From: Posidonia oceanica
Lineage: Eukaryota; Streptophyta; Magnoliopsida; Alismatales; Posidoniaceae
DNA length: 64,000 nt
Direction of reading: 5' to 3'
Assembly: GCA_037176725.1 (NCBI GenBank)
Contig: JAZBRS010000035.1
Coordinates: forward strand, 43,658,001-43,722,000
The notes under the pieces were generated by a model, which saw only the letters and a program-made list of their open reading frames with translations, searched no databases and had not been told where the DNA came from. Made by a program: the position numbers and the translations under genes. Shown in pieces: positions 13,043 through 63,400 of the stretch (position 1 is its first letter; the number at the start of each line of letters is the position of its first letter).

Positions 13043-13121
13043 AATAGGATATCTACAAATGCCCCTCCTTGGAGTTGATCTTGGAACAAGATCGATTCCA
13101 AGGTAAGAATGATGTCCTATT
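13043..13121 (-). other. Inverted repeat enclosing the D polypurine tract
   Basis: Plus-strand AATAGGATATC (13043-13053, inside the LTR) and GATGTCCTATT (13111-13121, internal) are complementary at 10 of 11 positions and separated by 57 bases that contain the PPT. B and C have the same arrangement with unrelated bases and 60-base gaps. A foldback placing the plus-strand primer in a loop is inferred. Confidence 0.6.
13058..13073 (-). other. Polypurine tract of element D
   Basis: The minus strand reads TCCAAGGAGGGGCATT directly before the LTR start TGTAGATATCC. B and C have CAGGGAGGGGCATC in the same place before TGTAGAC and TGTTGAC. In LTR elements this tract survives RNase H and primes plus-strand DNA synthesis. 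Confidence 0.75.
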
Positions 13122-33558: not shown

Positions 33559-35066
33559 CCTACCTTGCAGTGCGTTCTTTCCCGTCCCATCCTTTGCATT
33601 CTCATTACCCTTGTACATCCTTCTGCACTCCAATCTTGTCCCTCTGCATTCTCGCACTCTCTACACATATCCCTGCATTTCCACCTCTTTCAGCATATCT
33701 CAAGCAAAAAACCCAAAAATCCTCAGCAAAAATCATGCATTGCATTTGGCCTGATGATGAAATCGGATGTGCTTGCCTGCTCTGGAAGGAGTCTACCCTG
33801 CCTCACCCGACACTACTTAGGCATCTTAGCTAGTGAGGGAACCACCCTTCAAATGAGAATAGGCGAAATAACCAAACCCCTTAGGACTTGCACCTCCCGA
33901 GGGAGATAAAATGCTAGGGTGTGAGCAAGAGTGTGAGCCATAAAAGAATATTTCTAAGCATGAGCATAAATGAAAAGGCAAATAGAAGGCGAAGGCAGAA
34001 GCAGGCCCTAGAGATAGAGGCATGTAGCTTAACCCTATCCCTCCAAACTGCTTCGGAGATGGTCCACCATTTCGCACCTAGGAGCATACAAACCCACCTC
34101 AAACCCAGGCACCCATTACCTCTAAGCTAGAGACAACGGGAGCCTGCAAAAAAAGAGGGGGAAAGAAAGAACAAGAAAAGAAAAGAAGAACAAGAAAAAA
34201 AAAAGAAGCAAGAAAAAGGAGGGAAGACAAAAGTCAACCCCAGAAAAAAAAAGCAAGCAGTGCGATCCCGCCCCCTTTACCTATCTTAGAGAGGAACTAA
34301 AGTTTGCACTGGGGGAATACACAAGCCCTGCAGAGCCTATAAACCCAGCAAGGCCTAGCAAGCCGCCCCCCAGCTTCAACTAGGCGCCCATTACCTCCAA
34401 GTTAGGGATAGGGGAAACCTACACACCTATGAGGGAGCAAAAAAAAGCAAAAAGAGTAGGTGTAGGTCCTTGGGAGTTTGGCCTGGAGCCTGTCCTCACT
34501 ACCCACCACCCATACACTGCAAATAACCCTTCCCTGAGTGCCACCAGTAAGTTAAGAGTTTGAGTAGAGTCCAGTGAGCCAGGGACCCCTCTCTTCCTCT
34601 ACAGTAGGTGCTAAGCACTCCATATGCTGAGGGCTACAGCATATAAGCAAAAATCATGCACACATCTACAGCATCTATTGTAAATCATACACATATCTAC
34701 GCATATCAATCATAAACCATGCATGCATGCACAGCATCAGTCATTCCCCTCCTTCTATCTTCCCGCCCTGCAAAACTTGGCTCGGCACTGAGACAGTACT
34801 TTTGTCAAGCACGTGTTGACCTTCTTCAAGCTGCACTGTTCCAGAGCTCCGACCAACCACTTTCCTGCAAGCAAAACTGCCTTTGTCTGAATATGCTTAA
34901 TATCTGCACTCTGAATGCTAACTGTTGAACATGCTAAACTGCTAGCTTTGAAATCTGCATCTTTACCAGCCAGTGGTTACATGCTTATATCTGATCTGAT
35001 GAACTGCAACTTTGGTTACAGGTACCTGAGATCTCTGCACCAGCAGCCTGCATTCTCCCTCCCGCA
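33559..35066 (+). other. Spacer between pol and the mobile-domain ORF of B
   Basis: Non-coding. The first 300 bases align with A and C after pol. A purine-only tract follows (34141-34259). Two similar phrases, CCCATTACCTCYAAGYTAG, at about 34109 and 34388 suggest an old duplication. Just before the ORF, TTTGGTTACAG (to 35021) followed by GTACCT matches C's TGATAGCAG before GTACCT. This may be a splice acceptor giving a separate message for the downstream ORF. Confidence 0.55.
34141..34259 (+). other. Purine-rich tract upstream of the mobile-domain ORF in B
   Basis: About 115 bases are nearly all A and G (blocks like GAAAAGAAAAGAAGAACAAG). On the sense strand C has an A-rich purine tract in the same interval (plus-strand T-rich 49260-49425). 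A second plus-strand initiation site, like a central PPT, is possible but unproven; low-complexity drift is the plainer explanation. Confidence 0.5.
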
Positions 35067-36230
35067 ATGGGTTATCCTACTCTGGTCACCCCCATGCACT
35101 GCTCAGATGCCCTACGAGAGTGGATTGGCAAACTCACTGAAGCCGACTGCGAGAAGCTGCGCACATGGGGTATTCCATCCAAGCTTCTGACGGCAGCTGA
35201 CGTCAAAGTAAGCCGGCATCTCCTGTGCGCTGCTGCAAGGTTCCGGAAACCAGCGCATCATGTCTTTCGCTTTGGTAGGATAGAGCTGGCTCCCATGTTG
35301 GAGGAAGTGCGCCAGATCAACGGCTTCTCTAAGATCATGGGACCTACAGTCTTCATGAGGAGTGACAGGTACACTACGGTCCTAAGCCAACTGTCTGGGC
35401 TCTCTACCAAAAGCTGCCAACAAAGACTAATCTGCATCAACAGGCCCACGCCCCTGCTTTGCCTAGCATACTTTGATGCAATTATGGAAAAGCGTGCTGA
35501 ACTCGGAGACGAGTTGTGGCTCCAGCGATTCGTCACCAGCTTTCTAGGCGAGCTGATCTTCACGCATGGCCGGATGACAGTTGCAATAGAGATTGCTGAG
35601 GTTGCACTTGCAGTGGTGACCTGGCAGATTGACTTGGCACTAGTCGTCCTTGCAGAGACTTACCGCAGACTAGACTACATCGCACACCGCTGCCGCTATT
35701 TCCATGGCTGCGGAGCACTTGTGTAGATCTGGCTAGCTGCCATCGAAACATACTACAGCAGTGGCCATGCAAGGACCATCAAGAGCGTACCAGAAGAGTA
35801 CTAGAGGTTGTCTGAGCTGACGAATGATGCAGTAACTTGGTGTATCATCCCATCCGCAGCTGAGCCATTCACCGTCTTCTTCGATGCCCGCGACATGCGA
35901 CTCGTGGTGCTGCCAGGATTCACTGGGGGTGTGGAATACCACCCTATCCAAGTCATGCGGTAGTTTGGCTTCCGACAGGGTGCCTTTATTGATAGCACTG
36001 CGCCCAGGCTCATGCAGACCTACCCTCTCAGCACAACGGCAGCCATAGCAAAACTAGCTGATCTAATGCGGCATGGAGTGAAGTCTACGGACATCGTAGC
36101 TATGAAGGGCTCAGGATGCACTCCTGAGTATGTCGTTGAGGTGCAGGGACTCTGGCCCATCAGCAAGATCCCTCCTGGCGCCCCCCAGTTCCCTGACACC
36201 CGGAAAGCGAAGAAGGCTCGACTCAACTAG
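35067..36230 (+). pseudogene. Plant-mobile-domain-like (PMD/DUF7745-like) ORF of element B, with three stops
   Basis: A 387-codon frame runs from ATG 35067 to TAG 36228-36230. MGYPTLVTP at the start matches C's MGFPTLLTP, supporting this start. Features of the plant mobile domain family are visible: a region near residue 60 reading LLCAAARF, then HHVFRFGRIELAPMLEEV (C: TELTPTLEEV) near residues 65-85, like the TPTLEDV core of that family. The middle has LGELIFTHGRMTVAIEIAEV and HRCRYFHGCGAL. PMDs are plant proteins known both as host proteins (MAIN/MAIL1) and in transposons; this copy's function is unknown. Three in-frame TAGs (35724, about 35802, 35961) break it. The family call is by motif, not by search. 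Confidence 0.7.
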
Positions 36231-36771: not shown

Positions 36772-38392
36772 GACTTCGCTCCGTGTAGATGAAGTCCTTC
36801 GCCCCGTGCGGACGAAGTCCTTCGCCTGTTTCCTCATGCGAGGTCAGGCCCACTTGCTTCCTCGAGTGAGGACAAGCCCTGCTTGGCTCTGTGTGGACAG
36901 AGCCCCTGTCTGTCTCCTCGGGCAAGGATCAGACCTGCTTGTTTCCTCGTGCGAGGACAAGCCCTGTGCAGCTCCGTGCGGATGGAGTTTCCCTGTTTCC
37001 TCAGGCAAGGATCAGGCTTGCTTATTCCTCGGCCGAGGATAAGCGTATGCGTGCCCCACTTGCTTCCTCGGACGAGGACAAGCCTTTTTTCTTTTCATGT
37101 GACTTCGCTCCATGCAGACGGAGTTACGGCTGCTTGCTTCCTCGGGTGAGGACAAGCTTCTTTCTTCTTGCCTTTTACACAACTCCACTCCGTGCGGACG
37201 GAGTCCCGCCTGCTTGCTTCCCCAGGCGAGGACAAGCCTTTTTTTCTTTCGCATGACTCCGCTCCGTGCGGATGGAGTCCCACCTGCTTGCTTCCTCGAG
37301 CAAGGACAAGTCTTTTTTCTTTTCGCGTGACTTCACTCCATGCGGACGGAGTCCCGCCTACTTGCTTCCTCCGGCGAGGACAAGCTTCTTTCTTCTTGCC
37401 TTCTGCGCGACTCCGTTCCATGCAGACAGAGTCCCGCCTACTTGCTTCCTCGGGCGAGGGCAAGCCTTTTTTCTTTTCGCGTGACTTTGCTCTGTGTGGA
37501 CGGAGTTCCGCCTGCTTGCTTCCTCAGGTGAGGACAAGCTTCTTTCTTCTTGCCTTCTGCACGACTCTGCTCCGTGCGGACGGAGTCCCGCCTACTTACT
37601 TCCTCGGGCGAGGACAAGCCTTTTTTCTTTTCGCGTGACTTCACTCCGTGCGGACGGAGTCCCGCCTGCTTGCTTCCTCAGGCGAGGACAAGCTTCTTTC
37701 TTCTTGCCTTCTGTGAGACTCCGCTCCATGCGGACGGGGTCCTACCTGCTTGCTTCCTCGGGCGAGGACAAGCCCGCTTGCTTCCTCGTGCAAGGACAAG
37801 CCCCTCTGCGACTTCGCTCCATGCGAACAAAGTCCTTCCTGTTTCCTCAAGCGAGGATCAGGCCCGTTTGTTTCCCTGGCCAGGGACGAGCCCCTGGGTG
37901 ACTTTGCTCCGTGCGGACAAAGTCCTCTATTTGTTTCCTCGGGCGAGGATCAGACTGCTGCTTGCTTCCTCAGGCGAGGACAAGCCCCCTTTGGATTCCG
38001 TCCGTGCGGAATCCCCCACTTGCTTCCTCAGGCGAGGACAAGCCTTTTCCGTCTCCGTCCGCACGAAGGTTGTGCTTGCTTCCTCGGGTGAGGAGAAGTT
38101 CTTCTCGAACCCTGTATGCTCGGAGTCCTTCCCTGTATCCTCGTGCGAGGATCAGCCCTTGGGTGGCTTCACTCCGGGCGGACGATGCCTATGCTTGCCC
38201 TCCCCCTTTCTTCCTTTCTTGTTTGCTTCCTCGAGTGAGGACAAGCTCTTCTAGGACCCTGTATGCTCAGAGTCCTTCCTTGTATCCTCGTGTGAGGATC
38301 AGCCCTTGCGTGGCTTCGCTCCGGGCAGACGATGCCCACGCTTGCCTTCCCCCTTTCTCTTTCTTGCTTGTTTTCTCAGGCGAGGACAAACT
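36772..38392 (+). repeat. Array of two alternating hairpins in the 3' region of B
   Basis: A unit of about 73-81 bp is repeated about eighteen times with decay at both ends. Hairpin I is CTTGCTTCCTCGGGCGAGGA followed by CAAG (stem TCCTCG/CGAGGA plus CTTG/CAAG). Hairpin II is GACTCCG, an inner CTCCGTGCGGA, then CGGAGTC. Paired changes occur in both: TCCCTGGCCAGGGA (37873-37886), CTTA/TAAG (around 37026-37039), GACTTTG/CAAAGTC (37900-37924), GACTTC/GAAGTC (36772-36796) and GGCTCTGT/ACAGAGCC (36885-36904). Open frames through the array reflect its period and are not genes. Confidence 0.85.
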
Positions 38393-38794
38393 GCTTCTGT
38401 TCCCCTACGGGCTGGTAGCCCTAACTGGTCGGTCAACAACCATCAAATTGTCTAGCCCCTTCGCTTGTTGGGATAGCAGCCCTAACTGCACAGATGCCAA
38501 GCCCGTCAGTCTTGTCAAGCGCCCCTTTTGTGAGCTCGGACTAATCACCGAACTCATGCATTGCACTGTATCTTTCTTTGCACCCTTTCTACATCAGCAC
38601 CGCATTCTTTTACTAACAACATTGCATGATAAATAACTGCATCGGCACGCATTGCATCTGCATTGGCACACATTGCATCAGCATCAGCATTCGCATCTGC
38701 ATCTGCATTATGGCTTCGAGTCATGATTTCCGGTGCATCTGCCGGGTAAATGACTCACGCCTACAGCAATTTGCGCTCCTGCCGGCGTCAGGTA

Positions 38795-38868
38795 GGGTGT
38801 CTTGTCTACCCTAAGCAGCGGTCTCGCTACGCTTGACCTCGCTCAGGGAGGGGCATCTGTAGACACCC
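38795..38868 (+). other. Inverted repeat enclosing the B polypurine tract
   Basis: GGGTGTC (38795-38801) is complementary to GACACCC (38862-38868) in the LTR start, with 60 bases between. GTCTAC (38804-38809) also complements GTAGAC (38859-38864). C has GTCAAC against GTTGAC at the matching place, so both sides changed together. The enclosed bases contain the PPT. Confidence 0.7.
38842..38857 (+). other. Polypurine tract of element B
   Basis: CTCAGGGAGGGGCATC lies directly before the 3' LTR start TGTAGACACCCC (38858). It is identical in C. It is the expected primer for plus-strand DNA. Confidence 0.9.
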
Positions 38869-38999
38869 CATTCCAACAGCCTGGAAGTTGGTGGTTTCTC
38901 ATGCAGGCTTGCTTGGACTCTGGGATGGCTCTCTTTTTCAGACTAACCCATTTCTACCCAAAACCAAACCTAAAACCCCACCTAAACCCCAAAACCATC
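38858..38999 (+). repeat. 3' LTR of element B, first 142 bp, cut by element C
   Basis: It aligns without gaps to 14351-14492 with 7 mismatches. It breaks after CCATC (38995-38999), where C's LTR begins. In the 5' copy the next bases are ACTTAAGCC, so these, preceded by the duplicated CCATC, should be found right of C outside the window. Confidence 0.92.
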
Positions 39000-41900: not shown

Positions 41901-44612
41901 CGGGGGAGGTGAAGAATTACCTTTTCGCGTGTCTGGTGCGTCCTCCCGACCTCAGCAGTGCCGGAGCTGGTCGACGACGTCTGTCCGGTCGCTGCGGCGA
42001 TCACCAGCTGCCCGCGGAGGTCTGGATCTTCTCAAGGGGTGCTTCTGGTGCTTCTCGGTCGATCAGACGGAGGTTCTGCAGCTTGACAGAAGATCCGGTG
42101 CTTTTGGGTTCTCAGAAAGGAACCGGAGATGGAGGGAGGCTGTTGCTGCTCGTCGGACCTGGTGGAGCCTTCCGGGAGGTAGCTGGAGGTCTGGGGAGCG
42201 GTTCTGGATTGCTGGATAGCTGTTCTGGAGGCTGGGGAGTGGATTTGCTGAGTGGTCGGCTTTCTGATCAGAAGTTGGGACAGGTGTTTGTTGTGGAGTT
42301 TGTGGTCTGTGGTGGAGGATGGGGCTGAAGGTCATGTGCTTCTGAAAGGTGAAGTTCAGGCGAGTAATTTAGGAAGATTTGGGGAGAAATGGAGTTCAGT
42401 GGTGAAGGCAATTCTGAGATGATAAGTGGTGGGTTCAGTAGTGAAGTTTCAGATGAATTGGGGGTCGTTCTGAGGTGGAAAAAGCCGGGAAATGATGGAG
42501 GAAAGGCACTGATGTGCTGGGTGAATTTGGGGGATGAAAAGGAAGAGAATTGGATGCTGGAATGGGCTGGTCTCAGGGGAATGGAAAAGAGGAAGTGTTG
42601 CTGAAAATCAGAGGGAGAAGAAAGGGGAGTTTGCTTGGGAATTCTCTGGTTTTCTCAGCTCTCTCTCTTGGACGGCAAAAAGGCGATCAAGGAAGATTGA
42701 AGGGCTGGCTTTTATCAGGAGGAAGGCTGCCGGTGCGCGGGCTGGGATTTTTGAATTCAATCGGCGACGCACTGCAGCCGAGGAGATGGGTGCCGGCGAG
42801 ACGACGGGCATTGAATGCCTCCCGGAATTGGTGCTGAGACGGGAGAGAGCGGCGAGCTGCTGTGGATGATAAGGTGGAGGCTTGAAATTTGAATGGTGGA
42901 GGGAGCACTGCAGCAGGCCGCGGGAGGAAAAACGGAGGAGAAAATGCAGAAGGTTGAGGAAGAAGAAGGAGAACGACGGGCTGGGCTGCGGGCCGAAAGA
43001 AAAAAGAAAAAGAAATGAAGAAGAAAGGGAGAGACGGGCTGAATTGGGCCCAGCAAGGAAAAAGAAGAAAAGAAAAATGAGAAGAAAGAAAGAAAGAGAG
43101 GGAAAAGAAAGGAAATAAAATTAGGAAAAATAGATTAAAAATAAGCAAAAATACTAGAAAGGTTGTGTTGTGAATTGTGATTTTAATTAGATTTTTAATG
43201 ACCGTTTTGGGGTTAATTAGTATGTTTTGGGTTTGATTAGGGTTTTAGGGTTTTGGTTTTGCTTTTAATTAGTTTTCACTTGATTAAATGTTTGTTAAAT
43301 CTTTTAAATTGTTTTGTTAATTGTGTTTTTGTTGTTAAGTACTTAGGATGTTAATTAGGATTTTTAAGATTTATTTTTATATTAATTAGGATTGGTTTTA
43401 GGTTTTAAGTCTTAGTCTTCTAGGGTTTTCTTTTCTTAAGTCTTTCAAATTATGTTTTGATTTTCATTTGTTGATTTTTCTTGAAGTTTTTAGTTAGGTT
43501 TCTCTTGCCTGATTAGGTGTTTTTAGGTCTTTTAAATGTGTTTTTCTTTTCCTTTTAATTAAGTTTTTTAATTTGTTTTTTCTTAGGTTTGTTAGGTTAA
43601 GTCTTTTGCTTCTTTAATTACTTGTTTTAATGTTTGTTTTTTGATTCTTCTTTTTAGGGTTTGCTTTTTAATTCTTCTGATGGGGTTTTTACTCTTGGTG
43701 GGTTTTGATTTCATTTTAGTTTTTTTCTTGATTTTTCAGTGTTTTCTTTTGATTTGTTTTGCATTTTTTAGCTCACATGCTTGGTTTTCCTTTTAGCTTG
43801 ATTTAGTTAAGTTTAGGTTTTTAATTGCTTGTTTAATGTTTTTTAATTGTTTTTCTTAGAATTCTTGATTTGTTTCTTTTATGTTTTGGGGTTTTACAGA
43901 TTTTTAGGGGTTTTTATGGATTTTTGCAAGAGAAAGAAAGGGGAAAAGAGAAAGAAGAAGAGAAGGGAAAAAGGAAGAATAAAGGGAAAAGAGATGAGTT
44001 GAAGGAAAAGGATTTTTTGAAAATTAGGGAAAGTGTTAAAAATAAAGTAAAAATGGGAATAAGATAGAGGAAGGATAGAAGCACAAAGGGGGCCCACAGC
44101 CAGACCAGAGAAAGGGTAAGAAGGGGATGAAAAGAGAGATGATAATCTGGAGAGAGAGAGGAGAGAGAAAATGATAATCCCAGAGAGAGAGAAGGATAAT
44201 TTGAGTGAATGGAGGTCTTAAAGGTCTTGGAATGGGATGAAAATTGGTGAGTGGGCAGTCTAGGATTTGAGGTGTTGGTTCTGAAGTTTTGGCTTGATTC
44301 TAAGAAGGTTTTGGAGGGGTTTTAAGGTGTAGAAAAGGGGAGTTTTGCCTAGGTTTTCTAGGGTTTTTGGGAATGGTCTAATGTTTGAGATTATCTAAGT
44401 TCTTGGGTAGGTTTGCTGAGTAGGTGTTGGTGGGTTTTCCTATGGATTTTGGTCAGGTTTTGAGCTTGGGAAGAGGGGTAAAGGCTTAGGTCAAGTTGGC
44501 TGGTTCTGAAGGGTAAAAAAGAGGGTTAGAGTTTGGCTTGGTTTGGGTTTGAGTCCAGCAATCACTAGGAGGGCTCCAAGTGGTCCAAGCCTGCCAAGAT
44601 GGGGTGTCAACA
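39000..44612 (-). repeat. 3' LTR of element C (5613 bp, type II)
   Basis: The minus strand begins TGTTGACACCCC at 44612, next to the PPT, and ends at 39000, where TG is now TA (the 5' copy has TG at 60456). Going up the plus strand: conserved R/U5-like end with the GGTGTTAGGCACC hairpin (39325-39337) and GAGTCGCCA (39114-39122), hairpin minisatellite (39703-39895), TGCAATTTT-rich stretch (40680-41560), GC-rich block (41630-42880), purine tract, T-rich block, purine tract. Short open frames are repeated in both LTRs but show no domains. Confidence 0.93.
39703..39895 (-). repeat. Hairpin minisatellite of C's 3' LTR
   Basis: Units of about 30 bp pair across a short loop: GGCAC/GTGCC (39773-39790), CGCGC/GCGCG (39805-39820) and further GGCAC/GTGCC copies at 39834 and 39864. 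CGCGC/GCGCG against GGCAC/GTGCC is a paired change. One unit fewer is present than in the 5' LTR. Confidence 0.75.
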
Positions 44613-44679
44613 GATGCCCCTCCCTGAGCAAGGTCAAGCGGAGCGAGGCCGCTGCTCAGGGTTGACAAGACACCCCATC
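44598..44679 (-). other. Inverted repeat enclosing the C polypurine tract
   Basis: GATGGGGTGTC (44598-44608, in the LTR) and GACACCCCATC (44669-44679, internal) are perfect inverted repeats of 11 bases separated by 60 bases that contain the PPT. A second pair, GTCAAC (44606-44611) with GTTGAC (44661-44666), overlaps it. Confidence 0.8.
44613..44628 (-). other. Polypurine tract of element C
   Basis: The minus strand reads CTCAGGGAGGGGCATC and abuts the LTR start TGTTGACACCCC. It is the same 16 bases as in B. Confidence 0.9.
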
Positions 44680-45186
44680 TGATCGGCGGGAGCAGCGGTT
44701 TGCTATGGGCGTGAGCTACTTATTCGGCAGATGCACCGAAGATCGTAGCCTGTTGCCGCAATGCAAAATGCAGGGTGCAGATGGATGAATGCTAAGTGTG
44801 TAATGCATGCTGATGCAAATGCAATGCAAGAGTTAGACAAAAGTTAGCCAATTAGAGGAGAATGCTGATGCTGTGCAAGTGATGCCAATGATACTAAAGT
44901 AGTATGCAATGCTAGCTGAGAAGATGCAGAGATGATGCAAGAGAAAATGCTAAAAGGGCGCGATGTGGCGCAAGGATCTGGCAGGAAGGCCGGACTCGCG
45001 CGACAAAGCAAAGAAAAACAGGGTGCAGCTCGTCCCCGCCCGGGGAGCAAGCTAGCAGAAGAGAAAAGAGGGGTGTGAGGGGAGAGAGGCCAACTCTCGT
45101 ATCGCAAAAAAAAAAGAGGTGCATGACTTTGCCTTCCTGGGGCAAGGCCACGCCAAAAAAGGTGATAAGGTGACGGGCTTATCGTC
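44680..45186 (-). other. Non-coding stretch between the PPT region and the hairpin array of C
   Basis: No gene is visible. The first bases match B's region before its PPT (GAGCAGCGG-type words on the plus strand). Positions 44740-44960 are rich in ATGCAAATGCAATGC words. The rest is unique sequence up to the array. Confidence 0.4.
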
Positions 45187-46060
45187 CGGATAGTTTACGG
45201 TCCTATCAACCGGGAGTGATAGTTTAGGTTATCAGCCTAGAGTGATAGTTTAGGTTATCAGCCTGGAGTGATAGTTTAGGTTATCAGCCTAGAGTGATAG
45301 TTTAGGTTATCAGCCTAGAGCAGTTGTGAGTGATAGTTACTGGATATCAGCCGTACAACATGATTGTGTGGGATAGTTTACAGTCCTATCAACTGGCGGA
45401 TAGTTTACAGACCTATCAAGTGGCGGATAGTTTACAAACCTATCAACTGGCGGATAGTTTACAGACCTATCAACTGGAAGCCACAAACCATGAGTGATAG
45501 TTACTGGGTATCAGCCGTATAACGCAAATGCCGGATAGTTTACAGTCCTATCAACTGGAGCGATAGTTTACAGACCTATCAACTGGCGGATAGTTTACAG
45601 ACCTATCAACTGGCGGATAGTTTACAGTCCTATCAACTAGAAACGGCATTGCGAGGGACAGTTACTGGGGGTCAGCCGTATAACATGATTGCGCGTGATA
45701 GTTTAGGATATCAGCCTAGCAATAGTTTACAGTCCTATCAACTAGAACGATAGTTTACAGTCCTATCAACTGGCGGATAGTTTACAGGCCTATCAACTGG
45801 AACGCGCAATGATGAGGGATAGTTACTGGATATCAACCGTATAATGCAATTGCTGGTGATAGTTTAGGATATCAGCCTAACGATAGTTTACAGTCCTATC
45901 AACTGGAAACCGCAATTGCAAGGGATAGTTACTGGATGTCAGCCGTATAACACAACTGTGGGCCAACCATGGATCGGCCCAGATGATAGTTTAGGTTATC
46001 AGCCTGAGAGTGCTTGATTGTTGATAGTTTAGGATATCAGCCTGAGAGTGCTTGATTGTT
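45187..46060 (-). repeat. Array of 26-27 bp hairpins in the 3' region of C
   Basis: About thirty units of three kinds share one fold. First: GATAG, 9 bases, CTATC (e.g. 45426-45444), followed by AACTGGCG. Second: TGATA, 8 bases, TATCA (e.g. 45243-45260), followed by GCCTAGAG. Third: TGATA, GTTACTGGA, TATCA (e.g. 45331-45349), followed by GCCGTA. One third-type copy has GAC/GTC instead of GAT/ATC (45657-45673), a paired change. The place is equivalent to B's array, but the bases are unrelated. Confidence 0.85.
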
Positions 46061-46480
46061 GATAAGAGGGGATGAGATAATGATGAGAGGCTATTGCTAA
46101 AGAGGGGGATGAGATCATGATGAGAACTATTGCTAAAGAGGGGGATGAGATCATGATAAGAAAGAGGGGGTGAGGTAATGATGAGAGCTATTGCTAAAGA
46201 GGGGGATGAGATCATGATGAGAAAGAGGGGGTGAGATCATGATGAGAATGATTGCTAAAGAGGGGGATGAGATCATGATGAGAACTATTGCTAAAGAGGG
46301 GGATGAGATCATGATGAGAGCTATTGCTAAAGAGGGGGATGAGATCATGATGAGAGCTATTGTTAAAGAGGGGGATGAGATCATGATGAGAAAGAGGGGG
46401 TGAGGTAATGATGAGATAAAGAGGGGGTGAGGTAATGATGAGAATGATTGATTGATAAGATATCGGACTTATCGACCGGC
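46040..46480 (-). repeat. Short tandem array, GATGAGATCATGATGAGA type
   Basis: About eleven units, of about 36 bp where complete, share GATGAGATCATGATGAGA and GCTATTGCTAAAGAGGGG. Each complete unit contains the palindrome ATCATGAT. A 12-codon period creates a long minus-strand open frame (LIMISSPSLAIA repeated); I do not regard it as a protein. Confidence 0.75.
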
Positions 46481-46515
46481 AAAGAGGGGATGAGGTAATG
46501 ATGAGAAGAAATCAT

Positions 46516-46609
46516 CCTATGACACCAGGAATATCATAGGGGAAAGAAGGGAAGAATGATACCAAGGGGCGATCAAAAGATGCCCCTGGTGTCGGGATGA
46601 CACCAGGGG
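46516..46609 (-). other. Conserved hairpins and PPT-like box of C
   Basis: CCTATGA/TCATAGG (46516-46540) and a perfect 11-bp stem CCCCTGGTGTC/GACACCAGGGG (46583-46593 with 46599-46609, 5-base loop). On the sense strand the second hairpin overlaps AGGGGCATC, the PPT core. It is the counterpart of B 36664-36716. Confidence 0.7.
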
Positions 46610-46719
46610 TTGGCCAACGCGTCCTTGGCATCGAAAGCAGAGGGTGATGACAAGATTGTCGTGCTTGTCAGACGAGTAGTTTGGGGTACCAGCCTACTGG
46701 GGACTCTACTGAGGATGAT

Positions 46720-46974
46720 CAGCTGAGGAGGATGACAGGTTGACGGACCTTTCGCCGAGCAGTTTGGGGTGCCAGCCCGCTAGGGACTCAGCTGGGGCAA
46801 GCCAGCTGAGGAGGATGATAGGTTGACGGACCTTTCGCCGAGCAGTTTGGGGTGCCAGCCCGCTGGGGACTCAGCTGGGGCTGATCAGCTGAGGAGGATG
46901 ACAGGTTGACGGACCTTTCGCCGAGCAGTTTGGGGTGCCAGCCCACTGGGGATGATGATCCAGCTGGGGGCGAC
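46720..46974 (-). repeat. 83-bp tandem repeat, three copies
   Basis: Units starting CAGCTGAGGAGG at 46720, 46803 and 46886 are exactly 83 bp apart and differ at a few bases. A partial copy precedes them (from about 46650) and a diverged one follows (about 46975). Each holds CAGCTG and GGGGTGCCAGCCCGC words. No coding sense is apparent. Confidence 0.8.
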
Positions 46975-47261: not shown

Positions 47262-48464
47262 CTAGCTGGTTCGAGCCTTCTTCGACTGCCTGGAGTCGGG
47301 AAATAGGGGTCCGCCTGGCAGGATCTCAGTGATAGGCCAGAGCTCTCGGACTTCAGCTTCATATTCTGGGGTGCATCCCATACCTCTCACAACTGCAATG
47401 TCTGTTGATTGGACCCCATGCTGCATCAGACTAGCGAGCTTCTTGGTTGGGGCAGTTGTGCTGAGAGGGTACATCTGTAGAAGCTCGGGCGCTGTACTGT
47501 CAATGAAGGCGCCCTGCTGGAAGTCGAACTGGCACATGACCCTGATTGGATGGTACTCTACGCCTGCTGTGAAGCTTGGTAGAATGATCAACCGCGTGTC
47601 GCGCGCGCTGAAGAAGACAGTAAATGGCTCGGCTACAGAGGGGACGATACGCCATATCACAGCGTCGTCAGTCAGTGCTGATAGCTTCTCGTATTCTTCT
47701 TTGACGCTCTTGCCTATCTTGGCACGGGCGCTGCTGCAGTATGCTTCGAAGGCATGCACTTGAGGGCGCAAGAGGTTCATCTCTAAGTGCGCGGTTAGCC
47801 AGACTTGTATGAGTGCTCCGCAACCGTGGAAGTGGCGGTAGCGATGAGAGATGCGGTCCAGCCCGCGATACGTCTCTGCCAGGACAACTGGTGCCAGGTC
47901 TATGTGCTGGGTCACCACAGCTAATGCAATCTCTGCAACCTCAATGGCCACTGTTAGTCGACCATGAGTAAAGATCAGCTCGCCCAGGAAGCGGATAACA
48001 AATCCTCAGAGCCACAGCTCATCTCCGAGTTCTGCGCGCTTGTTCATGATATCATCAAAGTGTGCAAGGCGAAGCATAGGTTCAGGCCCACTGGTGCAGA
48101 TTAGTTTCTGTTGGCAGGTTCGAGTAGGGAGCCCTGTTAGCTGGCTCAGGACCTTGAGATATCCATCTCGCCTCATGAAAACAGGCGGCCCCAGGATCTT
48201 GGAAAAGCCGCAGATCCGACGCACCTCTTCCAGTGTAGGTGTCAGCTCAGTTTTTCCAAAGCGAAAGACATGGTGCGTCGGTTTCCAGAATCTTGCGGCG
48301 GCACACAGAAGGTGACGGCTGACTTCCACATCAGCGGCCTTCAGCAGTTTAGTTGGGATCCCCCAGAGGCGCAGCTTCTCACAGTCTTCTTGAGTGAGCC
48401 TGCCGATCCATTCTCGCAGGGTTTCCGAGCAATGTGCGGGAGTCAGCAAAGTAGGGAAGCCCAT
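47262..48464 (-). pseudogene. Plant-mobile-domain-like (PMD/DUF7745-like) ORF of element C, one stop
   Basis: A 400-codon frame runs from ATG 48464 to the stop at 47262, with one in-frame TGA at 48006-48008 (LWL, stop, GFV), where B reads LQRFV. Visible blocks: LREWIGRLTQEDCEKLRLWG (residues about 16-35), HHVFRFGKTELTPTLEEVRR (about 65-85), FLGELIFTHGRLTVAIEVAE (about 155-175) and GCTPEYEAEVRELWPI near the end. It lies between pol and the 3' array, where some retroelements carry an envelope or other extra gene; nothing looks like a membrane protein. The similarity to B along the whole frame indicates past selection. The family call is by motif only. Confidence 0.75.
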
Positions 48465-58722: not shown

Positions 58723-60028
58723 TGCTGACCTAGAGCGTGTGAGAACAGGGCTGCGACGAGTGTTCAAGCGGTGATTCCTAAGAGGAGCTATCTTCGCAAA
58801 GGCGGATAGCTCAGAAAGGGAATGGTCGCGAATGAAGTCGCACAAGGGGTGTCAACGAGGGTCGGTACTCGAGCTCTGGCAAAGGGAAACTCGCTTACCG
58901 ATCACGCTGACACAACAGAAGGAAATTAGGGGTTAGAAACTAAAAGATGAATGTAAATGAGTTAGTTAAATGGCATGAATGATATGCATGCTTTCTAGTA
59001 TGCCCCCCTCACCTAACTAGTGTCTCCTAGTAAGGTAATCTACTTCGGGTATCCCTGGGTGTACGGGTCACCGACTCAGGTCAGAAAATTAGGTTCCCTG
59101 TCTAACTCCCGGCCCAAAGCTCAGGAAATGACAGGGTGGTGCGTTGGTGGCCTCTACCCCGCCAAAGCGTGGGTGGTACCCTCTACTAACACCGACACGA
59201 CCCCCGGACGAGGAGGGGACAGACCGACTGACTCGTGCCACGCCCAAAGCGGTGGAACAAGAGGCCGGGACTGTCCTTCGCAGACTAATAGGTGGACTCA
59301 GATGAGAAGAATGCATGCCCTATATGATGCTTATGCAAATGCTTAAAGTTTTTTATCTTGCACATTTTATTAGCCAAAGGGAGTGAAGGATTGTTCAGAG
59401 TCTCTAGTTGCTCCTAGAAGTTCTTTTTACTTGCAGTTTTTAGTTAACCATGGGGAGAGCAGACAAGTCTCTACTATCCTAGGCATGGCATGCGCGAAAG
59501 GGAAGAAAATCAGTCAAGCATGGCAGGCAGACAATCATACAACACAACAAAAGGCAAGTGCATGGCATGTGCGAGTGTTTGTGAGCATAATGGTGAAGAA
59601 AAAACATTCATCAAGTCAAAAGGCATGTATGTAAGGCATGTGCGTGCGTAGTGACATAGCAAAGGTGTAAAAGAAGCATTCAACATTCAAAAGGCATGTA
59701 TCGTTGCCAAACAAGTATGTAGACATGCAATGTGTGATAACTAAAGCAGTAATAAGCAAGTAAGGCAAGGAAAATAAAGACAAGTAAGCTGTAAAGGAAG
59801 TAAAAGCAGAAGCAGGGGAACAAGTAAATAAACAAGCACAGAAGTAAAGCTAAGCAAAAGAGCGCAAACCGAGGTGAAAGAGGTGCAAAACCTAGGCAAA
59901 GTAGCCACGAAGCGACTTGCTAGGAGTTTGCACAGAAAAGCGAGCAAAACAGGCAAAGAAGGCACACAAGGCAGACAAAGCTGCAAAACAGGCAAGCGGA
60001 AAGCGAAGGCGAAAGCCGGAGTCTGGAA
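58723..60028 (-). other. Leader of element C, PBS array to gag
   Basis: No gene. The part at 58985-59410 aligns with B's leader (24090-24540), including GC-rich blocks. A further degenerate unit of the PBS repeat is visible near 59896-60028 (AGCCACGAAGCGACT). A pyrimidine-rich stretch ending in GTGTCAG near 58908 (sense strand) may be a splice acceptor. Positions 59480-59880 are A-rich with GGCATGYRTG words. Confidence 0.55.
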
Positions 60029-60454
60029 TCCCCAGCGGAGTCGCCACTGTGCGACTCGCTGGGAGCCGACACAGGCAAACAAGCAAACAGACAAGGCAGA
60101 CAAAGGCACAAAGGCAAACAAATCCCAAGCGAGCGAAAGCCAAGGCGAAAGTCGGAGTCTAGCATCCCCAGCGGAGTCGCCACTGTGCGACTCGCTGGGA
60201 GCCGACACAGGCAAACAAGCAAACAGACAAGGCAGACAAAGGCACAAAGGCAAACAAATCCCAAGCGAGCGAAAGCCAAGGCGAAAGCCGGAGTCTAGCA
60301 TCCCCAGCGGAGTCGCCACTGTGCGACTCGCTGGGAGCCGACACAGGCAAACAAGCAAACAGACAAGGCAGACAAAGGCACAAAGGCAAACAAATCCCAA
60401 GCGAGCGAAAGCCAAGGCGAAAGCCGGAGTCTAGCATCCCCAGCACAGTCGCCA
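60029..60454 (-). repeat. Tandem array of the primer binding site, exact 136-bp period
   Basis: The 18-base PBS complement occurs at 60029-60046, 60165-60182, 60301-60318 and 60437-60454, each 136 bp from the next. The first three read TCCCCAGCGGAGTCGCCA; the LTR-adjacent one has CA for GG in the middle. After each of the first three, CACTGT and GCGACTCGCTGG follow, so PBS and flank can fold into a stem of about 12 bp (60032-60044 with 60051-60062). The rest of the unit is CAAACAAGCAAACAGACAAG-type sequence. Confidence 0.93.
60437..60454 (-). other. LTR-adjacent primer binding site of element C
   Basis: The minus strand reads TGGCGACTGTGCTGGGGA, one base inside the 5' LTR end (60456), the normal place for minus-strand priming. 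It differs by two bases (TG for CC) from the three upstream copies. The likely primer is a tRNA-Arg, as reported for Ogre (from knowledge, not shown here). Confidence 0.85.
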
Positions 60455-60455
60455 C

Positions 60456-63400
60456 TGTAGCAATCCCAATCGGAATCAGGCTCGCTATTAGCGGCGATTG
60501 GATCTGAGGAAGAGGCTCAACTCGAAAACACTTAAAATCGAGGAGAAAAGAGAAAGATAAGACAAATCAGAGTCGCCACCATGTCTATTAACGGGAGACA
60601 AGGAAAACCGGGGAGATGCGTGAATTAACACGCAAAACCAAGTAAGAAATGCAAAGCAAAGCAATGCAAAAGAAAACAAATGCAAATGAATGCAAAAGAG
60701 ATGACTCTAGCCTAGGATAAGGGCAGTATGCTCATTGCGGGCCAAAAGACAGGGCAAGGACTCCTGTTACGTGCGGGGAAGGTGTTAGGCACCCCCGACA
60801 CGCCCGAGAATCGGTCTTTCTAGGCTTACGCTCGCATACACAAGGAAATGCATGATTGAATGCCTATGTGCCTATAGATGCCTAAATGGATGCTCAAGGT
60901 GTGCTCTAAGTGGAGAGAATGCAAAGCAAGGAAGTAAACGTGCTGTCTAAGTGCTCAGCTACGCTGTCTGTGTTCCGAACCGGGCGAAACCTGGCTCGTG
61001 AGAACTCCAGGCAGTAAGCATCACAGCCCTATATGCAAATGCAAGCGAAAAAGCAAAACAACGGTAAAACCATGCAATGCAATCGACATGCAAAAGAAAA
61101 CAGCGTAAAACAAGCAAAACGAGGCGAAAAACAAGAAAGCACGCAAAACGGTGCAAAAAGACAAGATCGGCACGCAAAACGGGCGAGAAAGCAAGGCGGC
61201 ACGCGAATCGGTGCAAAAGACGATGTCGGGCAGGCAAAACTGTGCCAAAAGCAGGGCGAGCGCGCAAAACGGCACGAAAGACAAAGCAGGCACGCAAAAC
61301 GGTGCCAAAACGAGAGCGGGCACGCAAAACGGTGCCAAAACAAGAGCGGGCACGCAAAACGGTGCCAAAAGCAGCGAGATAAAACCTCGGAAAAGCCGTG
61401 CGAATGCAAATGCAAGGAAAAGATTAGAAGTAGTAAAAGGAGAAGTAGAACAACGCATGTGTGAGAACAGGCGCTGTTCGGGGCCACACAGAGTAGGTGT
61501 GAAGACCTACAAAAGGGAGAGTGAGCAAACGGGGGGATTACCACCTCTTTGCGACCGTTTCCCGCTAAACCGTTCCACAGTGTGTCTCGCACGCTGCCCA
61601 AAGCTCGCGATGCGATCGGATCGTGGAAAAGGGGGAAGAAAGTCACATTAAGTGGTGAATCCAAGGAAAACACAACACAAAACACCCAAGAGTACGCGAA
61701 ACAGGGATCTGAGTTGATAGACAAGAAGAGGAGGTCCTATTCTACATGCTCAAAGAGACAGAAATCGAAAACGAGGAAAACTATGCAAATGGCATGCAAA
61801 TGAATGCAATGCAGGGGTTCAAGAGGACATACCTTGAAATCCTGGAGCCTGATCTGAAATCTGCTTGGTCCATGCTGAAGAGCGCTTCGCTGCGGTCGCC
61901 TGGGCAGCTTACTTGAGGAGATCCAACGGCCGGATCGGAAGATATTGCAGCTTCAAGGCAGGATGGCCAGAACAGGGAAGAAGAACAGATCTAGGTGTTC
62001 AGGAGGTTCTAGGGGCGTGCAAAAGGTCCTCCCAAGTGAAGGGGAGCTAAAGGTGCTTAGTGTGTGCAAAAGAATGCTAAAATGCAAGACTAAATGGATG
62101 CAGAATACATGCAAAAGCAAGAAGAGACAAGGGGAAAAACCTGGAGAAGACAGGAGTTCAAAAGCATTTTCGAAAAAGAAAAGGGGCTAAATGCAAGTTT
62201 TCACAAAGGATGGGGTCCACAGAGGAGGGTTTTGAAAACAGGAGAGGGCAGGGGGTTATTTTGCAAAAGATTGGGCTTAGAAAGTTATTTTGAAAAGAGG
62301 ATATGCATTGGAAGAAGTTTTGAAAGCAAAAAGAAATCAGAATGCAATTTTGGAAAAAACTGGGGTCTAAAGTGCAAAATTTCCAGAAAACAGGGTTCTG
62401 GGAAGTCCGGGAATGCAAGTGGAGGGTCTACATGCAATTTTGTAAGCATAGGAGCTAAGATGCAACTTTAGGGGCAAAACAGTCTTTTTACATGATTTTT
62501 AAAGGATGCAAGGACCTATGTGTGATTTTTGAATCATGCAGGGGTCAAATATGCAATTTTATATGGTAAACATGCTCTGAAATCAGAAGGCAGGACTGAT
62601 GTGCAATTTTTTGAAAAAACAGGGTTGAAAATGCAATGCAATAAGCCAAAATGCATGGAAAACAGTTACTGCACATTTAAAATGGATCTACATACAAAAA
62701 TGCAAAACCATGAGGCAAAACATGCAATGCAGTATGCAAAAATCAAAATAAAACCTAAGTTACTACAGTGCAGAGGACCTAAATGCAAAATCAGAAACAT
62801 GCAAGGGGCCAGAATGCAATATGATATGGTAAACTATATGCAATTAAATTAAATGAACTACTGCAGGACTTATGTGCAAAAATTGAAACCAGAGGGGCTG
62901 AAGCATAAAATTTTATAACTTGAAAGCACAGTAAATGGACCGGATTGAAAATACAGAAAAGCAGAAATACATTACGCAATTTAGCATGGTTTTAAATAAA
63001 AAACATAGCAACTTAAATGATAGAAGGACCAGAATGCAAAAATGAAAGAACTTAGGCTAAGCATGCAATATTCACACAAAAACCATATAACTGAGAAAAT
63101 AAAAGCACAGTAAACTACCGGCGGTGACCGTCACTGTAGCAGTGAACCACCGGTGGCCACCACCACCGGCACAGGAGGGCTGCGGAGGTGCGAGAGGGCG
63201 GAGACCATCACCGGCGACTGCACGGAGCTCTGGAGATCGTCGGGGGACCGTTCCACTGACTGGAACGTCCGGGAGACAGGAGGCCGGCGCCGAAGAAGAA
63301 GGACTGACCGGCGAGTTGCAGTCGGAGTAGGAGGACCGGAGCCTTGCTTCTGGTTGGTGGAAAGGCATCAGAGGAGGGAGAGGGAGCGGGGGAGGTGAAG

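Follow-up and report, generated by a model that had tools for sequence, protein, structure and literature searches.

Junctions of the polypurine tract with the long terminal repeat

We analysed a window of 64,000 nucleotides of plant DNA (Posidonia oceanica, contig JAZBRS010000035.1), which is built of nested Ty3/gypsy elements, and in particular the junctions between internal region and 3' long terminal repeat (LTR), where the polypurine tract (PPT) lies. In LTR elements, plus-strand synthesis starts from the PPT fragment left by RNase H at the border between internal region and LTR. A motif scan of the window found three PPT-LTR junctions, belonging to the elements B (LTR start at 38858, plus strand), C (44612, minus strand) and D (13057, minus strand), and at all three the start of the LTR is complementary to internal sequence upstream of the PPT. 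Computation shows that this complementarity exists, that its geometry is fixed, that it recurs at nearly all junctions sampled from two families and that it exceeds what shuffled sequences give. Our interpretation, to which we assign a probability of about one half, is that a conserved two-helix fold at the internal/3' LTR junction brackets the PPT and acts in plus-strand priming.

The layout common to B, C and D comprises an 11-nucleotide (nt) arm opposite LTR nt 5-15 (arm 1), a 5-nt spacer, 3 nt complementary to LTR nt 2-4 (arm 0) and a second hairpin, whose last base abuts the PPT, AGGGGCATY (Table 1). The stretch left between the helices is 11 nt long, GAGGGGCATYT. The original prediction, a model's reading of the letters of the window, had reported the inverted repeats, which are indeed present at the places it gave in B, C and D; the second hairpin is an addition to it. 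It had also held that spacing and pairing are kept though the sequences differ, which agrees with the common geometry of the three junctions. Its remark that D shares no sequence with B or C is right for the arms and the hairpin and wrong for the PPT and the LTR start.

Considering LTR nt 2-4 and 5-15 together, Watson-Crick pairs number 11 of 14 in B, 14 in C and 13 in D. The best ungapped stem spans LTR nt 4-11 in B (8 base pairs (bp), arm ending at -56 from the LTR start), nt 5-16 in C (12 bp, perfect, arm ending at -57) and nt 5-15 in D (10/11, arm ending at -54). In B, arm 0 and the hairpin share a base, the last of the former and the first of the latter, and the two pairs are mutually exclusive.

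Table 1. Features of the three junctions and of the LTRs of element C (window positions)
Feature	Position	Strand	Remark
B upstream arm 1	38791..38801	+	opposite LTR nt 5-15; 8 Watson-Crick and 2 G.U pairs of 11
B 5-nt spacer TTGTC	38802..38806	+	pairs with PPT in the sense-RNA minimum-energy fold
B arm 0 (TAC)	38807..38809	+	complementary to LTR nt 2-4
B second hairpin	38809..38848	+	flush with PPT; 7/9 Watson-Crick, two A.C
B polypurine tract AGGGGCATC	38849..38857	+	
B LTR nt 2-15, 3' side of clamp	38859..38872	+	LTR start 38858
C upstream arm 1	44669..44680	-	pairs with LTR nt 5-16, 12/12
C 5-nt spacer TTGTC	44664..44668	-	
C arm 0 (AAC)	44661..44663	-	complementary to LTR nt 2-4
C second hairpin	44622..44661	-	flush with PPT; 9/9
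C polypurine tract AGGGGCATC	44613..44621	-	
C LTR nt 2-15	44598..44611	-	LTR start 44612
D upstream arm 1	13111..13121	-	opposite LTR nt 5-15; 10/11, C opposite A at nt 8
D 5-nt spacer ATTCT	13106..13110	-	
D arm 0 (TAC)	13103..13105	-	complementary to LTR nt 2-4
D second hairpin	13067..13103	-	flush with PPT; 15/17 Watson-Crick, two A.C
D polypurine tract AGGGGCATT	13058..13066	-	
D LTR nt 2-15	13043..13056	-	LTR start 13057
Element C 3' LTR	44612 down to ~38998	-	within the 3' LTR of B, 141 bp past the B LTR start
Element C other LTR	begins 60455, to 64000 and out of the window	-	97.5% identical to the C 3' LTR over the shared part

RNA folding gave z scores of -3.1 for B, -3.6 for C and -4.4 for D, and the pairing between LTR and arm persisted with flanks of up to 300 nt per side. 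The two LTR starts of the window that have no PPT (14351 and 23640) showed no such arm, their best stems being of 5 and 4 pairs and their fold z scores -0.4 and +0.2. An Rfam search returned no match above the gathering scores.

Then, we compared the stems with chance. For the best ungapped stem, dinucleotide shuffles as good as the real sequence numbered 23/4000 for B, 0/4000 for C and 26/4000 for D, and among about 4000 random places of the window those as good were 37, 1 and 34, respectively. With the common geometry, which was chosen after B, C and D had been seen, dinucleotide-shuffled upstream sequences reached the observed score in 8/40000 (B), 0/40000 (C) and 0/40000 (D) cases; random places did so 3 times for C and 2 times for D out of 40,000, counts that may include the elements' own loci.

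A blind scan for self-complementarity, covering 127,700 positions on both strands with no sequence required, found four positions with at least 13/14 pairs: the C junction, its neighbouring base, the mirror of C on the other strand, and the D junction. Across 127,870 placements, the LTR tips of C (threshold 13) and D (threshold 12) match their own arm alone, and the B tip reaches at least 11 at 8 placements, the top one (12) being the arm of C. When six hairpin pairs are added to the scan, C (20/20) and D (19/20) rank first and B scores 16. On the blind and extended scans, C and D thus stand on their own merit, and B stands as a relative of C. Under free geometry, 14 clusters reach 13/14, C, D and a mirror among them, which indicates that the fixed spacing carries much of the signal.

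Conservation of the fold in a larger sample

The pattern AGGGGCATNTGTNGANAYCC has 55,273 exact matches in the genome (2.96 Gb), and the reversed pattern has 0. The junction sample comprised 100 of these matches and is not a random one, since it comes entirely from the initial 12.6 Mb of a single contig. The sampled junctions form two types, B/C-type (LTR TGTNGACACC) and D-type (TGTNGATATCC). With the 5-nt spacer, 86/100 junctions reach 10/14 pairs and 97/100 reach 9, levels attained by 3/1,729 and 34/1,729 letter-shuffled upstream sequences, respectively. The original prediction had proposed a comparison of further family members with shuffles as a check. Its claim of a constrained fold at the PPT-LTR junction is supported, the same architecture being found in two families and at nearly all of the 100 further junctions, with an arm core that in the larger family (B/C-type) is much more conserved than the flanks.

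Adding B, C and D gave 74 B/C-type and 29 D-type junctions. Their median fold z scores on the sense and antisense strands were -3.28 and -3.67 for the B/C-type, and -2.94 and -4.82 for the D-type; a stretch of the LTR body, used as control, gave medians of 0.11 and 0.47. No junction was left out of the 10/14 counts, the permutation tests or the fold z scores. The alignment of the B/C-type (A2) holds 65 of 70 distinct stretches, five (L017, L044, L067, L081, L114) being omitted for different or missing spacing. The pairing may also help to locate LTR starts: in 38 loci of 3 kb, each chosen for its junction, 11 of the 13 matches at 13/14 pairs are junctions, as are 29 of the 71 with at least 12 pairs.

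In local alignments, B and C are alike at -250 to -12 (z 55.5) and at LTR nt 1-16 (z 8.5), weakly alike at -700 to -250 (z 3.3) and at LTR nt 400-1200 (z 6.7), and unlike at LTR nt 16-400 (z 1.2) and in the 3' untranslated region (UTR) from -1500 to -700 (z -1.0). The B LTR is interrupted by C past nt 141, so within the LTR nt 16-400 comparison only nt 16-141 belong to B itself. D resembles B at LTR nt 1-16 (z 8.2; C versus D, z 2.9) and is not alike to B or C at -250 to -12 (z 1.6 and -0.4). Comparing C with D, 8 of the 20 pairs are changed on both sides with pairing retained.

Within the B/C-type, differences per site amount to 0.060 for the arm core, 0.21-0.33 for the sequence upstream and 0.46 for the LTR body; in the hairpin, the arms differ by 0.10-0.11 and the interior by 0.21. 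The contrast is weaker in the D-type (arm core 0.153, spacer 0.052, hairpin arms 0.07-0.09, hairpin interior 0.116). The upstream arms fit their own LTR better than LTRs permuted within the family, with a mean of 11.80 versus 11.39 pairs in the 74 B/C-type and 12.03 versus 11.63 in the 29 D-type junctions, and 0/2000 permutations were as good in either type; within-family pair counts also exceed those of shuffles and slid partners. The relatedness of the copies inflates both excesses.

A similar pattern with a purine at LTR nt 7 has 154 genome matches versus the 55,273 with the usual termini, which suggests either that the LTR tip is very constrained or that the copies are young. In 30 of these purine copies, the arm base fits the usual C or T in 28 (G in 23, A in 5) and the mutant base in 2; they look like point mutants.

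Strand, possible role and rival explanations

How could such a fold act? The hairpin would abut the PPT on its 5' side, and the LTR start (nt 5-11 as firm core, up to about nt 15) would pair with internal sequence just upstream of the hairpin, so that the PPT would be bracketed between two helices. These would limit the RNA-DNA hybrid that survives RNase H, and the primer would end at the LTR boundary; primer ends and the future terminus of U3 would thereby be defined. The original prediction had offered plus-strand priming, cutting by RNase H and end recognition by integrase as possible roles. As a more tentative step, the working form may be the minus-strand complementary DNA (cDNA), since predictions leave the complement of the PPT more open there than they leave the PPT in genomic RNA. 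A narrower version, in which two DNA helices mechanically cap the hybrid at about one turn, so that both primer ends, and with them the U3 terminus used by integrase, are fixed by the helix borders and not by the PPT sequence alone, appears doubtful to us.

The original prediction had placed the plus-strand primer in a loop. Predicted folds of sense RNA do not agree with this: in them, the 5-nt spacer pairs with the G-run of the PPT, and an open PPT can be imposed only at a cost of 7.5 kcal/mol in B, 3.9 in C and 3.5 in D. The mean unpaired fraction of the PPT is higher in the antisense than in the sense strand, with 0.77 versus 0.29 in the D-type and 0.65 versus 0.52 in the B/C-type. The stem of arm 1 (stem 1) is part of the minimum-energy fold of D-type junctions in 26/29 antisense and 13/29 sense cases (13/28 single sense folds in the set used for comparison with RNAalifold). 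Among B, C and D, all 5 mismatches of the core read A.C on the sense strand (sign test p 0.06); once the outer arm of B is counted, the ratio is 6/8 (p 0.29). The summed energy difference between strands gives 0.0007 against shuffles, a value that overstates the case because any imperfect hairpin favours one strand. Since the strand signal held in the D-type and was mixed in the B/C-type, minus-strand cDNA is a lean of ours and not a claim.

Several observations weigh against a PPT-bracketing fold that acts in priming, or against its placement on the minus strand. In the window, B scores 11/14, and 80 positions of the blind scan reach at least 11, B and its shifted images included; with G.U allowed, other positions score 19/20 in the extended scan. 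LTR tips swapped between junctions reach 10/14 in 1,067/1,729 cases, because the tips are alike across junctions. One clear exception among the 100 junctions, L081 (G000:C1:8531600-8531919), is without the arm; its PPT and LTR start are normal and its upstream sequence is different. The outer arm of the B/C-type, opposite LTR nt 12-15, is variable (0.357 differences per site), and the arm core of the D-type (0.153) varies more than its spacer (0.052). A C-A mismatch at LTR nt 8 is kept in 28/29 D-type junctions; in the opposite strand it is a G.T pair, and copy L094 has a perfect pair there. RNAalifold did not return the fold with default scoring and did so with RIBOSUM scoring; we set the default result aside because it missed a stem seen in 61/65 single B/C-type folds.

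Covariation and strand add to these points. On trees built with the arms excluded, LTR nt 4 has one supported independent pair by arm (4 on all branches) and 3 by LTR (6 on all branches), with no direction, and at LTR nt 12 of the D-type there are one arm change and two LTR changes, too few within families to show coordinated evolution. The paired B/C change pointed out by the original prediction is literally present and is weak evidence, as LTR nt 4 is unpaired in 24/65 aligned B/C-type junctions; we rejected it as proof of structure, despite a skew in the table (Fisher p 0.002). The sense minimum-energy folds do not contain the pairing of LTR nt 2-4, and imposing it while the PPT is kept open costs 12.7, 7.9 and 6.5 kcal/mol in B, C and D. 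The strand is not settled in the B/C-type, where stem 1 appears in 70/74 sense and 63/74 antisense folds and a sense G.U at LTR nt 15 is kept in 52/74. Folding with DNA parameters favours the plus strand for C and gives B a minus-strand minimum of a different structure, with a clamp probability of about 0.67.

Alternatively, the fold may act in genomic RNA, shaping the PPT for RNase H or contributing at the 3' end of the RNA to packaging, export, stability or translation; the region could there make the polymerase pause or single out the PPT for RNase H. We consider this rather unlikely, though the strongest of the alternatives. Sense RNA folds well (median z about -3), with the near-constant stem 1 of the B/C-type just mentioned; the genomic RNA of human and simian immunodeficiency viruses (HIV, SIV) has a conserved, paired PPT G-run by selective 2'-hydroxyl acylation analysed by primer extension (SHAPE; PMC3616985, PMC4439019), and PPT shaping for RNase H has been proposed for Sireviruses (PMC2829016). 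Stem 1 is nevertheless found in fewer than half of the D-type sense folds, and the paired G-run in the sense fold argues against exposure of the primer.

If the block were maintained through common ancestry, or because a protein binds it as DNA or RNA, the pairing would be a by-product without structural role. The close similarity of copies within families (mean column identity 90% and 94%), the few independent compensatory changes and the frequent fit of swapped LTR tips speak for this reading. It has to face two families that cannot be aligned upstream of the PPT and yet share the geometry and the 8 doubly changed pairs, as well as the better fit of the own LTR than of permuted ones, to which relatedness contributes; we regard it as improbable. 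Integrase must recognise the LTR tip, and the stretch copied in the inner arm is the LTR tip itself, so that the arm might mimic the terminus, for example by holding or blocking cDNA ends. The D-type arms, which mismatch the tip at nt 8 in nearly all copies, and the second hairpin and the gap at the PPT, which have no place in such a model, make this very improbable. Chance complementarity is barely credible. It could apply to single elements, such as B, whose score is equalled or exceeded at 79 other positions of the window (shifted images included), and the 14 clusters under loose geometry are in its favour; for the class as a whole it is excluded by the blind scan, the shuffles and the 100-junction sample.

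Element lineage and comparison with known systems

In element C, several open reading frames (ORFs) on the minus strand encode pol domains in the order RVT_1 and RT_RNaseH, then RVT_3, then integrase domains; we read RVT_3 as a probable second RNase H (aRH) between RNase H (RH) and integrase. B has a match to reverse transcriptase alone in the one ORF tested, and of D the window contains the PPT, the start of the LTR and roughly 1.3 kb of internal DNA, pol lying outside. A search with a polyprotein fragment of C gave 1,698 proteins at E <= 0.001 among 7,943 scored (47-59% identity). Among the 120 matches listed, those with a named organism are from flowering plants, except two with bacterial labels (Weizmannia coagulans and Salmonella enterica), which are plant retrotransposon proteins by similarity and probably reflect contamination of those assemblies. 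No relatives were found in viral contigs, bacterial and archaeal genomes or phages, and 12 plasmid records had distant matches, the best place of each below 60% identity and none covering 80% of the query. Matches of the sequence pattern outside the source genome were discarded as chance.

Other features of the elements are as follows. A 136-bp tandem repeat in C (59999-60458, minus strand; 3.4 copies, 97%) has its plus-strand end where the C LTR begins, and its units carry the sequence TGGCGACT..GCTGGGGAT, similar to a primer-binding site; the likely transfer RNA primer site is thus present fourfold, at 60027, 60163, 60299 and 60435. Downstream of pol lie an extra ORF in C (47262-48005, minus strand), with a plant mobile domain match barely over the cut-off, and one in B (34995-35726, plus strand), with a DUF7745 match under it. 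The 3' UTRs of B and C are largely tandem arrays (37059-38398 and 45189-46952), despite which the final 210-250 nt before the LTR are still alignable between the two. A diverged C-like LTR, from 23640 down to about 17913 on the minus strand, is about 60-80% identical by pieces, has no adjoining PPT and looks like a solo LTR.

According to PMC6317226, the second RNase H of the Ogre and Retand groups (Tat lineage; see also PMC11963269 and PMC5348765) sits between RH and integrase. The second RNase H-like domain of C occupies the same position; we class the elements as probably Tat-type Ty3/gypsy, with C providing the tested domain evidence and D as a candidate member. Among the Tat papers, the words "hairpin", "inverted" and "secondary structure" are absent from PMC11963269 and "inverted repeat", the one structure term searched, from PMC6317226; the retrieved part of a Ty3 review (PMC5371799) describes no hairpin at the PPT. 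No such fold for Ty3/gypsy or Tat was found among the open-access titles and beginnings of abstracts listed, a corpus that mostly excludes subscription papers, and a literature search by sequence motif, with 331 papers matched, had no retrotransposon paper among the 40 listed.

The structured and conserved PPT region recalls HIV-1 and SIV, where the G-run is paired in genomic RNA; in the accessible sections of these reports (PMC3616985, PMC4439019) the A-rich 5' ends are unpaired, and a helix of the LTR tip plus a flush hairpin is not described. The same sections differ on function: PMC4439019 suggests a link of the HIV structure to RNase H processing, calling the mechanism of PPT function unknown, and the SIV/HIV comparison in PMC3616985 considers RNA structure unlikely to modulate priming. 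A stem between the U3 start and sequence upstream of the PPT, as here, was also reported by Benachenhou et al. 2013 (PMC3601003), who, in the sections available, give such a hairpin for Sire, cite HIV, give no Ty3/gypsy Tat case and call for a systematic search for "PPT-containing hairpins" in other LTR retroelements.

The closest known arrangement is the PPT/3' LTR inverted repeat that Bousios et al. 2010 (PMC2829016) describe in Sireviruses and about half of classic Ty1/copia elements, and propose to help RNase H form the primer. As there, B, C, D and the sampled junctions have the right arm inside the 3' LTR and the left arm upstream of the PPT. In Sireviruses, the left arm borders the PPT directly, the right arm begins about 28 (or 18) bp into the LTR and several identical PPT copies lie upstream; here, a 37-40 nt hairpin stands between arm and PPT, the right arm is the LTR tip itself, starting at nt 2 (arm 0) or nt 5 (arm 1), and the left arm occupies a position about 49-67 nt before the LTR.

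An LTR tip paired with internal sequence would be a concrete cis-signal in elements of great abundance in this genome, as the number of motif matches indicates, and may help to set the exact end of the DNA copy and, in annotation, to place LTR starts. Given that Ty1/copia already has PPT-flanking inverted repeats, the fold of these Tat-type Ty3/gypsy elements is a variant of a known arrangement, which it would extend from Ty1/copia to Ty3/gypsy; what appears to be new is the use of the LTR tip itself as an arm, together with the second hairpin at the PPT.
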